Assembly: GCA_009829735.1 (NCBI GenBank)
Contig: CM020618.1
Span: forward strand, 25,889,122-25,953,121
DNA length: 64,000 nt
Reading direction: 5' to 3'
Source of the DNA: Pyropia yezoensis
Taxonomy: Eukaryota; Rhodophyta; Bangiophyceae; Bangiales; Bangiaceae
Part shown: in pieces, positions 55,861 to 64,000 of the stretch
Numbering within the stretch: position 1 is the first letter of the stretch
How the letters are laid out: each line of letters begins with the position of its first letter
The notes under the pieces: model-generated
Database searches by the model: none
Told to the model about the DNA's origin: nothing
Seen by the model: only the letters and a program-made list of their open reading frames with translations
Program-made: the position numbers and the translations under genes

Positions 55861-58800
55861 CTGATGTGCTCCAACACTGACTCCGCCTTCCAGGTCATCT
55901 CATGAACAGTTGTCGTTGCAGGGGCGGCCGCCAGCACCGCGAAGACCGCCGCGGACCCACTCGACGGAGCCACAGAGAGAGAGCGGAGAGGGGCGGGTGG
56001 GGGCCCGTGGTACTCGAGGGCGGGACAAGGGGGAGGTCGGTGGCCCCACTCGGCAAAGAGACGTTCGACTGAGACTGCTGAGTCGCGGGTGGGCCCCCCC
56101 TTACGACGGAGGCGGGTGGGGGAACAAGGTAGGGCTCAGATGGGAATAAGAAGGTGGCGTTGAGTGGTGCGCACAGGAGTTGAGTCGCATTGCAATCGGG
56201 ACTGAGTCACAAGTGCTTACGTCTTGTACAATGCGTTGGGGTTCAGTTTATTTCGTGTAGGGTTCAGTTGCAGCGGTCGGGTTCAGTTGCCGGCTGTTAT
56301 CACAACTCTGGAGCCCTGAGAGGCCGGCCGCCAGACGGGGCGAGGAACCAGCAGCCTGGCTGCGGCGCGCAACCTCAGGTGGTGCCTGTAGCATCCCTGG
56401 TCGCGACTTGGCGCCGACCCGGAACTGCGACCAGAGGGCACCAGGTGCCAGAACACGCCCGCCGTGTGGTGACGGTTGGCGGCCGTGGCCCGTGCCCGGC
56501 ACTGGGATGCGGTGGACTACGCTACCTACACGTGAGAGAGGGATTTCTGATGGGTTTTTGCATATTTGTGAGGGACTTGATTTGAGAGAATTTGAGTGTG
56601 AGATTAGTGAGTGGGAATAGAATTAGTAGTGATAGTGGCCCCCAACCTGACGAGGTTAGACTCGGGTCGGGGCCACTCGGGGGTATGGGGGGGCTACCTG
56701 GCAAACGTGCCGAGGCTCCCCCAGATGCACTTTAAGAGGGACAGCGAGGCGCCCTTGGCCCGCGCCCTCAGGAAAAAGACAACTGCGCGTTTGCTTTCCT
56801 CTTCCCCGTGTGCACTACCGTGTGTATGTGTTTGCTCTGCGAGCAGGCACGTGAGGCAACAGGCATACCACTCTCGTAGTTCCCCTTTCTGTGTTACCTG
56901 TCCCTTTCCTCCGAGGGATATTGACACGTGTCTGAGAGGATCGAGTTTTATACCACAGTGCCAAAAGCAGTGCGCCCATGTCGCATCCTCACTCGGACCT
57001 CATCCGCCAGCACGTTGCTCTCGCCTGCTGGGGCTCGCCTTCGTGCTCTCTTTCTTTCCAACCCTTCTTCAAGAGTTCCCGCTTGTTCCGGACCCCTGCT
57101 GCCTGTCGCGCCTCCTCTGGTTCCCCTGCCCCCTCTTTTTCATGTACCTCCGCAGCTTCCTGAGCCCTCGCTGTTGCCTGTGGTCTTGATCCAACTTTTT
57201 CTCCACCATGCCTCCACAACTCCAGGAACCATGGCTCCACATTTCCTTGTCGTGCACCGTGTCTGGGCTACTTCCTTCGTTCCTGCACCCCCGTCAATCT
57301 CGACGGAAAGCTACGATGGCGGCGGTGGTGACGGTGCGGGATCGCTCCTCAGGCCCCTCTCGTACGACTGTCGCGGCGGCAGCAGCGCTGGCGGTGAGGC
57401 GCCCGTGGCGGCGGTTGCCAGGGAGGTCGTGCGACTGCCAACCCCATTACATTCGCGTGCGGGGGGAGCGGGGATCGCCCACGGCCGCAACCTCGGCGCT
57501 CGATGCTGCACAGTGCTCGGCCACAGCGCAAAGGAGCTCCGGCGGTGGAGTATCTCTGTTTTGAGTGCACGGGGGGGGGGGGGGGAGGACCGCTCGTCCT
57601 GTCCTGCCCCACGCGATTTTGGCGACACCACGCATGCACGTTGTCGCATTGGCGGCTGCCGCTCGCAGCAGATGCAGGCCATGCTCGGATTGCACCGCGC
57701 GCAGCGCACCACCTGTGCAACCATCCCCCCCCCCCATTTATCCTATATAGGGGTCGGGGACGCAAGGGAGTGGAGGTGGGAAAGCAAGTCGGGAGGAGCA
57801 TGGCAGGACTGTGGCGGTTAAAAAAAAAAAACGGTCTGCCCACCCCGCCCCATCCCCCCTGCTCGCGTCGCACAGTTGGTCCTCTAGCCCAACCCTCCAC
57901 CCCCCCTCCACCCTGCCATCCCCTCAAAAAATGGGGGGCAAAGAGCAAAACGATTGCCAATCCCGCCCTCTCCCCCCTCCCCCTCACCTCCTTCCCGCGA
58001 CGCGAAAAGGGGCGGCGGCGGTCGGTGGAGCAGCGGTGGTCGCCGTGGGACGGGGTAGCGACCGGGGTTGATGGCGGCAGGAGGAGGCGGGTGGGCGTTG
58101 CAAACAGTAGCCGGGTGTGGGGGAGAGCGTTGAGTGGGAAGCGCCTGTGGCGTTGACGCGACACTCCGGCTCAGGCTGCGAACACGTGGTTGATCCAGGT
58201 TCAAACTGGAAGGGTTGCGCGCTCGAAAAGTTCCCAGAAGGTACTAGAGAGTGGTGCTTAACTCTTGACGCAAAAGTGCCACAAAATGTGGCGCCACATG
58301 GCTTTGGCCGATGGCATCGTCGGCAGCCGCGCCCACCTGTATCTTGATGACATCTGATTGTACTCGTCACATCTCCACGTTCAGCACACCATTAGGACTG
58401 CTGTAGGGATTGTTGAAAACGTACCCAACTGCATCTCGGCTGCATCTTTTGGACTCTACATGTCATTTCCATGCTCAGGCGTCGTTGCCTACGACCGTTC
58501 TGTTTCAAGTCTGGGAGCCTGAGGACTTTGCCAAAGAGATTGTCTTAAAGCTGTCCAGAATGACAGTCAACGCAGGCAAATGCGGGCGACCATCCGGCCA
58601 TCCGTATCAATGCTCCGTGGGGTAGTTCTCGATCTGGTTAGGACAGCATTTCAACTTCATCTCAAGCGTGAGGGTGGGGCCTCAGTCCACCTCAGTGCCC
58701 CCAGTGGCCCAAATATGCCCTGCCTTGCCTGGTAAGAAGCGACAGGGACGCTTATTGACTCCGTGCTGGGGGGCTACAGAGAGAAACTGAAGCCTGTGAA

Positions 58801-59286
58801 GGGCTGATAGCAGATGGTTTCTTGGATTCTGTGCTCTATCATGAGCACTAGGTAGGTGCTGCGCCTGGGAGCAACGAGAGAGAGCCACATGCCTGCACTA
58901 AAATCTACGAAGCGCATGAAGCGACGGCGATTCTCGTTCGGCGTGCTCTCACGGCCAAGGCACAGCCCGAAATGACTTGGCCTGTGCGCCTGTGTCATGG
59001 GACAGGCCACAGAGGCCTCTCAGACCACGTTTGTCAAAACAACGACAATGATTATAGTACTGATTTTTTCTACGAAGCGTCAAAATCAAGGCGGACGTGG
59101 TGTCTCGCACTCCTGTATCGCTCTTATTTCTCCCCTCTCTCCCTCTCTTCTCTCTCGGTCCAGACGGTCAAACGGCGTTCAATGGCTTGCCATGCGTGAC
59201 ACGTCATTCAATGGCAGCACAATAAGTCAGATGCAACAAGATACTTGTGTGCACACCATCATGCAGCCGCGTGGCTCTCTCGTGCC
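55861..59286. other. lower-GC intergenic region without recognised genes
   Basis: No ORF here has recognisable content on either strand. Points of note are three spaced GGGTTCAGTT repeats (56239-56288), an AT-rich zone at about 56540-56640, a CT-rich zone with an ATG cluster (56980-57330), an A-run at 57821-57830, and ordinary-composition sequence from 58190 on. Composition differs from the GC-repeat-rich gene region to the left, which fits a region built from old mobile DNA. Confidence 0.45.
56239..56288 (+). repeat. three spaced GGGTTCAGTT repeats
   Basis: Exact copies of GGGTTCAGTT start at 56239, 56260 and 56279, spaced 21 and 19 bases, about two helical turns apart. No gene is adjacent. 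They could be protein-binding sites or part of a mobile-element end. Confidence 0.7.
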
Positions 59287-62200
59287 TCACACAAAGTTAT
59301 TGGTAAAGAAGCGGTGGTCGCGCCAGTCACATGCATCAGAAGCAAAGCTCTTTGGGAAGCGACACACCCCAACACGATCCACCCACTCCTCCCAGTCGTG
59401 CTCCACGCAGAGAGCGTCAATGATCTCGTGCGAAGAAATGGCCGCAAGGGTGGGGCGTATCTTACCCTCCCGAACCAGGTGGCACCACTGAAGCCTCTCG
59501 CACCCGTATGCCGTGAAAGGACACTCAGGCACGGAGCTTGCGGTCTCAGCACAGTGCACCACGACCGTCCGACTGAGCGTGCCGTTGTGGGCCGCAATAA
59601 TCGCGCGTGCCTGCCCCACTCCGACCGTCCCGTCTTCTGCTCGGTAGCGAACCCAGTCATACCAAGGGCGTCCCTTCAGGTCCGGGGTGGCCCAGACCAT
59701 GGTGCGATCGCCGCGCGCCCGACGGATATCAGCGTCTGGCAACAACGTCCCGGACTGCGTCGTGATGAAGTCAGACGAAGCGCACTGCAGGGCCTCGTCC
59801 AATGTCACCAAGCCAGACGCAGCTGCGAAGTCGGAGACGGAGCTGGGCGCCCCACGGGCACGCATACGACTCAATTTGGACGCCTTCTTGGAAGTCGCTT
59901 TTGATGTCTGCCGCTGTCGTGAGAGTCGTACGACGCTCTGGATCTGCTCCGTGAGCACCATCTGCAATGCCGCGTTATCACGACTCTTGTTCGTGAGTGT
60001 AAAAGCCAGCTTGACAAATTTGTGCAGGGCCTCGTTCACGCCCGTGTTGCCGTCTTGGAGGTTGCCTCGAAGGAAGAACTCGTCCAGTAGATGCGACACT
60101 GCGCGATGCAGCTTGGTTGTGTGCGAGGGCCCAAAGAGGGGCTGGTAGTCGTTCTCAATCCAACGACTCATACGACGACATACCGACTTGGCTTCCGCCC
60201 AGGTCTTCGGCCGCACATCAAAGGCGCTCTTCAATATCGCGGCGAGCTCGCAGAGCCCCCACGTCAGGAGACGATGATGCTGCCCTCCTGCTCCAGACCG
60301 CCCGAACAAGCCCGCAGCTGCGAAAGGCAAGAAGTGAACCGCCTCACGGTGCTCCTTACCCTTCAAGGTAGCCTGTTTCTCTCCACTCTTGATGAAGTAC
60401 CTGAGGTGCATTTGTAGAGAATCAAGTGCAAGAACCAGCCAGGGCGGTGACTAGAGATCAAATGAAACAGTCAGATATAGTGCATGCATCTCCAATGGAA
60501 TGTAGCAACATCAAGATACAATCAGATCTCACGCAGCAGCGTCACAAGGATGAAGCTCTCACGACAAGCAACTCTTACCCCGGGAAGATGGATGGGACAC
60601 GGTGCGTGCGACTCGCGAACAAGAACCGCTTGTTAGCGATACGCACAGTCTCACCCGCTGTGCCGTGCAAAAGCTTCTTCGAACCGGCCAGCTCATGGGC
60701 AAAGGAATGTACACCTGTTGTCAGCGTTCTACAGATGCCGAGGTCCATGACCTGCCAATGGCAAAGGAAGGAGAAAGTGGGGGACAGAGCATAAACGAAC
60801 GCAAGCAGAGGATTGTGCGAGTCAGTACGTGTTACGGAGAAAGAGTGACGTGCCACCAGCCCTCTTGCAGGAGAGAAATGTAGAGATGATACAATACAGA
60901 TGCGTGACAATGACATGTACGGCAGCGTCATGCAAGCAGCATCTGGCAATCACCAAGGAAACACAGGAGTATGGAGCGTACGTGTAGTCGGTCAAACCCG
61001 AAGATCTGGTACAGCAGCAGCGGACCAGAGCCGAGTCCAGCCCAGGCGGCCAGTGCAGGTACAACGCAGTGGATGCTGTTGGCGGTCTCAATCGCATTGA
61101 TAATGACACCATTGCCCCTTATTCCCCGCATGAGCGCTCCCTTGAGCTGCAGCTTGACAATCTTGAGCACGTTCCGCTTCTTTGGAGAATTCTTCCTGGA
61201 AGGCCGCACCCCGCTCGACGTGGAGCGTGCCATACATGGCGTGCAGTCGTACGCGCTGCCGTGACGCTTGAGGCACAAGACGTCCCGCTCTTCTGGCTGG
61301 TCCGACACGTAGAGTATGAGTCTCGGAATGATCTTCACCACGGCACCGTCCGGCAATGTCATCTCGGCACCGAAATGACTGGCGAGGATGGTATCTCGAA
61401 AGACCAGCGCGATGGTGCGTTGGAGGATCTCCGCCCGAGCCTCTGCAGCCTTTGACAAAGACATTGCCTCGTACCGCGACCGTACTTGGGGCATGTATGC
61501 CACGACGACCCATTCTGGTTCCTTGGTCACGATGTTCATCACTCTCATACGCAGCGGATACGCAGACACACCTGCAAGAAGTGCAATGGGCCGACACAGC
61601 GATGGCCAAATCAACAGTTCGCACGCTCCGTCAGTACAAGTTACGACGAGACGTATGGAGAAGCACAAGCTGTGCTGATGACAGCAAATGAGGTCATGAT
61701 GCGGTCAGTAGTGACACGCAGTGTGGTAGTACGAAAATCAATCCCAGTGAGAAAACGTACCACCAGAAGAGGTTACAACCGTCCCATCTGAGTACAGCGC
61801 CAGTGCAAGCATCTGTGCGCACAGCCCAAACACGCGCTTGACGTCCGCCCGCTGAGCTCCGTAGGCATGGCCGTCAAAGAAGTCACGCAGTACGTCTCCG
61901 TCTTGCATCACCGGGGAGGCTGGAACAATGTCTCCAGTGGCAACAGATGGCGTGCAATGCGCACATGCGGACGTGGGCGTCGTAGTCCCGGGATCGACGT
62001 CTTGCGAGCTTCTTCCGACTGCATCTGGTCCGTTCTGGGATCCGTCTTGACTGTAATGGACGCCAGCCGCACAAGCACAATCCTCCGAGCCCCGCTCCCA
62101 CCTGACGGTTGCGGCCGCCGTAAGACATTCTTGCACGACCTTCAGACCCTTGCGAAGGAGGATACGATGGGAACCCACCTTCGTCGTCACGACGGCCTCC

Positions 62201-63015
62201 ATCCACCCCAGCTTCCGCAGCATGCGCCTCTTCTCGTTCCGCACTGCATTCTTGAGCGACGATGGCGTGGGGAACGCGACCTTGAACGGCAATGTCGTTG
62301 AGCCAGTCGCCCGCTCCACCGACAAGCACATCTGATGAGCTGCGGCAATGCGCGTCTCAGACATGGTACAAGCGTTGGCAAACACGTCGCGCAGCGATGG
62401 GGTGACGAAAGCAAATGTGTCCGTCGGAGCGTTGTCCTCGTACACAGCACGACAGCGCTCCTCATCACCAACCTCATCGAGGTAGTCCAACACCTTCGCG
62501 CAGAGCGTTTCACCGAGGTCCCCCTCACAGACGACGGGAGAGGCGTGATCCGCAAAAGCAGCACCGTGCAAATCATTAGCGGCACGCATCTCTGCTGATC
62601 TGACCACATCTGGATGTTCCCCGCTCACACAATCATCAGAGCTGGAGTCACTCGGCGCCGACGCGTCACTGTCGTATGCCGAGGAGCTTTCTCCTTGCGA
62701 GTCCCAGTCGTTCTCTCCCGCACCATCTCCACCGTCACCCCTCTCCTCAGCATCCCCGAAATCCTCCTCCTCTTCGGAATCATCTCCCCCGCCCCCACCC
62801 ACCAAATCATGATCGATATCCTCCTCCTCGCCAGTCCCATCTCCACCACCGGCCACCCCATCATCCTCTTCTGAGCTCCCCATGGCCAAGCTCCTCGCAG
62901 TCCCAGCTTCTGCAGCATCATCTGCAAGCCTGTGCCGCTTGCGCAGGTGACGGCCAAGGTGGCAGGGACTAAGAAGACGACCGTCATCACAACCGTCTAC
63001 GGTACACCGCTTCAT
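59287..63015 (-). mobile_element. intact DDE transposase gene, Plavaka-like, four exons
   Basis: Exons on the minus strand are 63015-61761, 61571-60982, 60751-60579 and 60400-59287, giving 1043 residues. Donors are GTACGT, GTACGC and GTAAGA; phases 1, 0 and 2 all match, and no stop or frameshift interrupts the joined protein. The N-terminus has a C2H2-type zinc finger (CTVDGC with the following HLGRHLRKRH, residues about 4-28), then a Glu/Asp/Gly/Ser-rich linker (about 45-130). The catalytic core starts with ALYSDGTVVTSSGG (Asp about 410), then SAYPLRMRVMNI and PEWVVVAYMPQV. VMDLGICRTLTTGVHSFAHE (Asp about 618) and GNTGVNEALHK (Glu about 796) supply the other candidate catalytic acids. SDxT followed by a 'price-list' of YPL..NI and a D-x-G-x-x...H block is typical of Plavaka/KDZ-type transposases. 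Assignment to that family is from pattern only. Tandem repeats lie just upstream (63093-63271). Confidence 0.72.
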
Positions 63016-63092
63016 ACCAGGAACGCGATCAGCCCCCCCCCCCCCCCGTCCCCCCCCTCTTCCCCATGTGGCGTCGGGCTCACGCCAGTAAA

Positions 63093-63271
63093 GCGGGGAA
63101 GACGAGGATGCGTCGCGTCACACGCCTGGAATGCGGGGAAGACGAGGCTGCGTCGCCCATGGGGTAGAGATGCCGGTAGGTGCGTCGCCCATGCGGCAGA
63201 CGTGGAAGAGCCCAGGCGAAGTCACGCGCGTCGCCCGTCAGGCAGACGTGGATGAGCGCCGGCGAAGTCAC
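63093..63271 (+). repeat. two pairs of tandem repeats upstream of the transposase
   Basis: A 24-base unit GCGGGGAAGACGAGG-TGCGTCGC (one variable base) occurs at 63093-63116 and 63133-63156. A 31-base unit starting GGCAGACGTGGA and ending GGCGAAGTCAC occurs at 63195-63225 and 63241-63271. The first two share the TGCGTCGCCCAT flank seen again at 63181. Repeats within about 260 bases upstream of a transposase start are typical binding sites for the element's own transposase or its promoter. Confidence 0.75.
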
Positions 63272-63718
63272 CATCGCAAGGGACTCTCGGGATTGATAAT
63301 GCGCGCCCCACCGACACCACCCACTCAGTACATATATTCGATTTCCAGCATACAGGGCTTAACAAATAAATGGATTCACTCGTCCACCTGCACTGCGGAA
63401 CGCTTCAGCGCATTGGCAGTGCTCCAGAGTTTTCGGGCAAACGCGATCACCCAAATGTTCATGGGCTGTCTTGAAAACTAGCGTGTGTGCCATGCGATTG
63501 GGCTGTGGCGTGGACCACAGAGCATAAACCACGAATCTGTGCGTGAAGGTGCGATTTAGAGATGTTTTTCAGAAGTACGGCGTACAACTGTCGGAACGAA
63601 AAACAAAAATGCAATGTGGCATGATGACGGAATTTTGTAGTTCTGAAAATTGTCTCACAAGTTTCTGTCTTAAACTACAGTACGGCTGGTGTATGTTGGA
63701 TAAGATATGAGGGAAGGT

Positions 63719-63719
<1 letters not shown>

Positions 63720-63749
<30 letters not shown>
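63720..63749 (+). repeat. 30-base poly-G tract
   Basis: An uninterrupted run of 30 G lies in non-coding DNA near the window end. Its exact length is unlikely to be reliable. Confidence 0.9.
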
Positions 63750-63750
<1 letters not shown>

Positions 63751-64000
63751 GGGAGGAGGAGGAGGGAGGAAGGCCGGGTCGGGTGGTGGAGTTCGCCACG
63801 AGGAGCAGGTGGGTGGGATGGATGCGGGGACGGTGAGCCCGGCCGGCGCAGGTCCCGGCTGTGGTGGCACGGCGGGGACGGTTGTGGCGGCGGCGGTCAT
63901 CACGGCCAGCTTGGCATGCTGGCGCCCCGGCATCCACTGTTGTCTTTGTCGCCGTCAACAATTGGGCTCGTGTACGGTGCTTTCAATTGGTGCTGGCGTC

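Follow-up and report, generated by a model that had tools for sequence, protein, structure and literature searches.

A probable young Plavaka-like DNA transposon of the nori alga Pyropia yezoensis, represented by an internally deleted copy that encodes a transposase

An apparently intact, intron-containing transposase frame on the minus strand of the Pyropia yezoensis genome raises two questions, namely whether it belongs to a recently mobile element or to a gene domesticated by its host, and to which family the encoded protein should be assigned. We analyzed the locus within a window of 64,000 nucleotides (C1:25889122-25953121) and, for copies, in the genome of 107,475,971 bases on 11 contigs. 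Our preferred answer, which we consider probable, is that a young Plavaka-like cut-and-paste DNA transposon of the CMCT clade has multiplied in this nori alga, and that the copy in the window still encodes the transposase but has suffered an internal deletion.

The sequence-only reading of the locus had joined four minus-strand frames into 1043 residues without a stop, which was confirmed here: from the ATG at 63015 to the stop codon ending at 59287, four predicted exons on the minus strand (exon 1, 61761..63015; exon 2, 60982..61571; exon 3, 60579..60751; exon 4, 59287..60400) join to 3132 coding bases specifying 1043 residues plus stop, with no internal stop and with GT..AG boundaries in all three introns. 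The latter, likewise on the minus strand, read GTACGT..GCAG (intron 1, 61572..61760, 189 bp), GTACGC..GCAG (intron 2, 60752..60981, 230 bp) and GTAAGA..TCAG (intron 3, 60401..60578, 178 bp), and the GT and AG of each were kept in 17/17 genomic copies. Seventy-two combinations of alternative GT/AG joins also left the frame open, one of them again with 1043 residues, in a search range that left out the acceptor at 60400; since so many other joins are open, the splice sites are to be taken as a model and the four-exon structure as a prediction. For intron 3, the donor at 60598 combined with the acceptor at 60450 gave an open frame but a weak donor, and we prefer GTAAGA at 60578, paired with the acceptor that precedes 60400. 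That the frame goes beyond chance is indicated by its retention in 11/17 genomic copies and by a Pfam match that crosses the exon 1/2 join. On the 5’ leader side of the gene (63016..64000, minus strand), still inside the element, copy-to-copy homology runs through; C and G homopolymer tracts were seen here in oriented copies (window positions 63720-63749 and 63033-63047), with a C-tract length varying among copies. Imperfect inverted repeats of 20 and 14 nt (58869-58897 and 59262-59288) flank the non-coding stretch past the transposase stop.

The DDE transposase call of the sequence-only reading was borne out by the Pfam profile Plavaka (PF18759), to which the whole 1043-residue protein matched with an E value of 1.3e-11 and 44.8 bits (cut-off 26.3), and which was its sole Pfam match at E <= 1. 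The match comprises residues 399-546 and profile positions 108-257 of 325, with E796 lying outside. When five pieces were tested individually, exon 2 alone exceeded the cut-off (E 2e-9), and exons 1 and 4 gave no Plavaka match. NCBIfam returned nothing over cut-off for three proteins; among solved RAG1 or Transib chains, the transposase had no match at E <= 10, and solved structures overall yielded weak matches only, the best at E 0.31 (transposase) and E 0.37 (exon 1 of the second protein described below). A search of viral contigs with exon 2 gave 12 pattern places and 0 confirmed ones. PF18759 matched 114 times in the P. yezoensis genome versus 0 times in 14 control genomes; by our count, 18 of the 114 fall at places of the window element's family, so that most of them represent other Plavaka-like sequences. 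Hence, the earlier ‘Plavaka/KDZ-like’ label survives in its Plavaka half, as the nearest family over cut-off, but not in its KDZ half, for which no match was obtained at E <= 1.

At the N-terminus, exon 1 encodes a C-x4-C-x13-H-x4-H motif starting at residue 4 (the search pattern permitted 12 or 13 residues between C and H), an acidic linker and D410. Classical C2H2 fingers have 12 residues between C and H. The C2H2-type finger claimed previously is zinc-finger-like by spacing alone; Pfam reported no zinc finger at E <= 1 anywhere in the protein. Candidate catalytic and zinc-binding residues are D410 (YSDGT), D509 (VSDQPE) and E796 (VNEALH), plus C528-x2-C531, H615 and H771-x4-H776; exon 2 carries D509, C528 and C531 and ends with codon 615 (H615), exon 3 begins with codon 616 and contains D618, and exon 4 contributes H771, H776, E796, the C-terminal part and the stop. 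Around D410, D509-C531 and H771-E796, these residues were unchanged in the three copies compared. The arrangement D, D, E with C(2)C and H(3-4)H between the second D and E is the layout of Plavaka and the CMCT clade, for which Kojima 2025 (PMC12730594) also gives 2-5 bp target duplications and mostly CA..TG termini. The catalytic set is therefore likely D410, D509 and E796, with the catalytic and zinc roles of the named residues predicted from the sequence. Of the earlier triad at 410, 618 and 796, all three residues exist and the outer two stand, but D509 fits the clade spacing and is likelier as the second aspartate than D618, which sits in DRLHVMD next to H615. Two spaced patterns each occur once in the protein. 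Of 20000 shuffles, 1091 contained the one and 1152 the other, and 26 contained both in the right order, a number that is only a guide, as the comparison with the RAG1 motif was made after the sequence had been seen. For mouse RAG1, PMC4914335 lists D600, D708, C727, C730, H937, H942 and E962. The D2-C, C-C, H-H and H-E distances (19, 3, 5 and 20) are thereby equal in the two proteins, whereas D1-D2 measures 108 in RAG1 versus 99 here and the C-H insert 207 versus 240.

The sequence-only reading had left open a recently active or a domesticated element and had suggested looking for near-identical copies with matching termini and duplications; copies, shared ends and a flanking AT were all found. 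Among the 46 matches listed, the 3729-base locus is represented by at least 17 near-full-length copies (window copy counted) and by fragments. In 11 of the 17, the frame is open, in ten of them including the stop and in the eleventh (L025) up to the end of the alignment; of the remaining six, one is interrupted by a stop at codon 925 and the other five by indels with stops. The ten intact copies differ at 84 exon columns, 83 of which are private to one copy. Their dN/dS averaged 0.76 over 45 pairs (0.61-0.78 versus L025). Exons were less variable than introns among the ten copies (84/3132 versus 24/597), without reaching significance (p 0.08), and a comparison over all 17 copies (193 versus 46 variable) gave p 0.17; variation was even over the codon positions (49/52/56). 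We take the intact frames as a sign of the youth of the family, not of selection within it, and the almost exclusively private differences as the mark of a recent burst rather than of a domesticated gene. The element may still be active at present.

The part of the element inside the window extends over 58316..64000 (minus strand) and continues to C1:25955605, which corresponds to 66484 in window numbering, giving 8,169 bp in all. Its 3’ terminal inverted repeat ATCGTCGGCAGCCGCGCCCACC lies at 58316..58337 (plus strand), the first two bases (58316-58317) being an AT that we read as target duplication. The 3’ terminus pattern matched at this one place in the window, with 0 matches expected by shuffles. 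At <=3 mismatches, the 3’ end (58316) is common to 19 genome places and the 5’ end (C1:25955605) to 21; the terminus patterns read backwards as a control gave 0 places. The inverted repeat ATCGTCGGC..GCCGACGAT is imperfect, with 22 bp paired and 3 mismatches, and a long terminal inverted repeat was dismissed, as the 26-bp ends differ outside this pairing.

AT flanks both ends in 10/10 copies of which both flanks were examined, with no longer duplication common to them; a C before and a G after the AT are frequent, not fixed. Searches for empty sites, in which the two flanks of a copy are joined by a single AT, gave 999 places at <=3 mismatches for copy L020 (none exact, with the AT intact among the rows listed), 7 places for copy L027 and 2 for the window copy (3 mismatches each in both cases), and backwards controls for these patterns gave 0. 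AT on both sides of the element and a single AT in the empty sites identify AT as the target, which is duplicated upon insertion; formally, the element could instead carry one AT of its own and duplicate nothing. According to our reading of the frames, the L020 and L027 targets are Gypsy-type retroelements. One 32-base pattern, retroelement integrase-like, is shared by about 999 genome places, and retroelements of this type serve as insertion sites for the Plavaka-like element. The 3’ flank of copy L011 equals that of L020, which may reflect one insertion copied along with its surroundings or two insertions into one and the same site of the retroelement.

Over its first 2,011 bases, the window copy aligns at 99% with the 5’ end of the copy at C3:27269070, and the alignment then jumps to the transposase half. 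The window copy lost a second gene when about 6 kb were deleted internally. We put the length of the complete element at about 14 kb, an estimate from copies L029, L030 and L032, each of which is interrupted by 500-base N gaps. After the N gap in L030 (C3:27271100-27281090), the preceding 5.5 kb recur in nearly the same form, probably an assembly artefact, as though two overlapping contig ends had been set side by side. The second gene, absent from the window copy, is read in the direction opposite to the transposase (divergent); in L029, it starts at about 993, with exon 1 running to about 2003 and a second exon to 2558, and several in-frame splice choices exist. Neither exon had a Pfam match over cut-off, and a TET/JBP domain was not reported in them by Pfam.

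A genome search with exon 1 of the second gene returned 61 rows, among them 29 distant ones (36-50% identity), of which many have an open frame. We asked how often such a distant row accompanies the transposase, considering the best 30 exon-4 rows outside the element's own family from a total of 133 (111/309 candidates scored), with own-family and weaker rows left out. A distant second-gene row was present within 30 kb (<=30 kb) for 20/30 transposase rows, upstream in 20/20 and divergent in 17. These 17 pairs correspond to 16 distinct second-gene rows, since two rows serve two transposase rows each, and one is weak (E 7e-4). When positions were shuffled in 2000 rounds, divergent upstream pairs numbered 0.14 on average and 3 at maximum. 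The retention of the pair in 17/30 cases against this shuffle mean marks the second gene as a lasting part of these elements. Two older copies on C2 (4607059-4610644 and 24840265-24843851) carry the second gene at 84% and the 5’ end ATCCTCCGCC, with no transposase row nearby among the matches listed; they are possibly non-autonomous forms.

The most likely mechanism would be as follows. The spliced 1043-residue protein would recognize the inverted termini, probably via its N-terminal part, and excise the element by an RNase H-like core (D410, D509, E796), whose parts would be kept in place by a zinc site formed by C528, C531, H771 and H776. Joining at an AT dinucleotide with a presumed two-base stagger would then leave AT on both sides. 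In the complete element, the product of the second gene probably assists transposition, for example by binding DNA.

How far do alternative explanations account for the same observations? Within the CMCT clade, the element might belong to another branch (EnSpm/CACTA, ESTA, Lanisha or an unnamed one) and be Plavaka-like in its Pfam profile only, with the same mechanism. We consider this the unlikelier assignment, yet one to be taken seriously, as the Pfam match is partial and the termini CGTCGGC..GCCGACG together with AT fit neither of the Plavaka sublineages, for which Kojima 2025 (PMC12730594) gives TGT..ACA (PlavakaA) or CATCA..TGATG (PlavakaB); fungal families with Plavaka-like proteins were moreover classed there as EnSpm. 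On the other hand, Plavaka is the only profile that the whole protein matched at E <= 1, and the 2-bp duplication falls within the 2 or 3 bp stated for Plavaka in the same text. Owing to its termini, we have not filed the element as PlavakaA or PlavakaB; some resemblance to PlavakaB lies in ATCG..CGAT with the frequent C before and G after, and the CA..TG termini described in that text for most of the clade are lacking. The element also departs from Plavaka in its second gene, which is divergently oriented and belongs to no known family, and in residing in a red alga instead of fungi. Plant En/Spm elements have a two-gene layout, too. With EnSpm/CACTA, the window element has in common the clade motifs and a large size with transposase plus second protein, but it has neither CAC..GTG termini nor a 3-bp duplication, and its second gene runs in the opposite direction and is without match. 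Transib elements make 5-bp target duplications, in contrast to the AT found here.

The two remaining explanations fare far worse. That the locus is a host gene domesticated from a transposon would agree with a long intact frame with introns, but is very improbable in view of the abundance of near-full-length copies with nearly all differences private, sharp inverted termini, an AT target and empty sites, and of a dN/dS of 0.76 among ten copies; single or few copies, missing termini and purifying selection, as used to recognize domesticated transposases, were not what we found. Recent activity is thus the part of the earlier alternative that holds. Still harder to credit is a KDZ (Kyakuja-Dileera-Zisupton) transposase, for which nothing but the motif impression of the sequence-only reading speaks: besides the missing KDZ profile match, C(2)C and H(4)H are as in CMCT, and the duplication is AT only, versus the 8 bp given for Zisupton in PMC12730594. 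We therefore retain the Plavaka-like transposon as the preferred reading.

More tentatively, and with odds slightly below even, these elements could form a distinct red-algal CMCT branch, with divergent two-gene elements of about 14 kb, AT-specific insertion, CGTCGG termini and a protein of no known family as lasting, perhaps obligatory transposase partner, across families that share about half of their transposase residues. A new red-algal lineage, as suggested before, would be compatible with the termini. The Plavaka literature found, with PMC12730594, PMC11244446 and PMC9674265 among it, is mostly on fungi; an Amoebidium paper names red algae in connection with tyrosine recombinases located in repeats with a flanking Plavaka transposase. 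In the literature covered, which lay mostly outside subscription journals, no description of a red-algal Plavaka element was seen, and a search on CACTA transposable elements in red algae and Porphyra found no paper. With its defined termini, target and partner gene, a young family in a red alga broadens the clade to which the ancestor of RAG1 belongs and, for nori genetics, is a candidate source of insertion polymorphism markers.

Two further features of sequence composition may be added. The 5’ half of the element contains a GC-rich minisatellite with steps of about 39 bp (e.g., L013, oriented 1050-1570), the copy number of which differs among copies. The GC content of the window amounts to 55-62% at positions 56001-64000, comprising the element and its surroundings, versus 74-86% over its first 20 kb.
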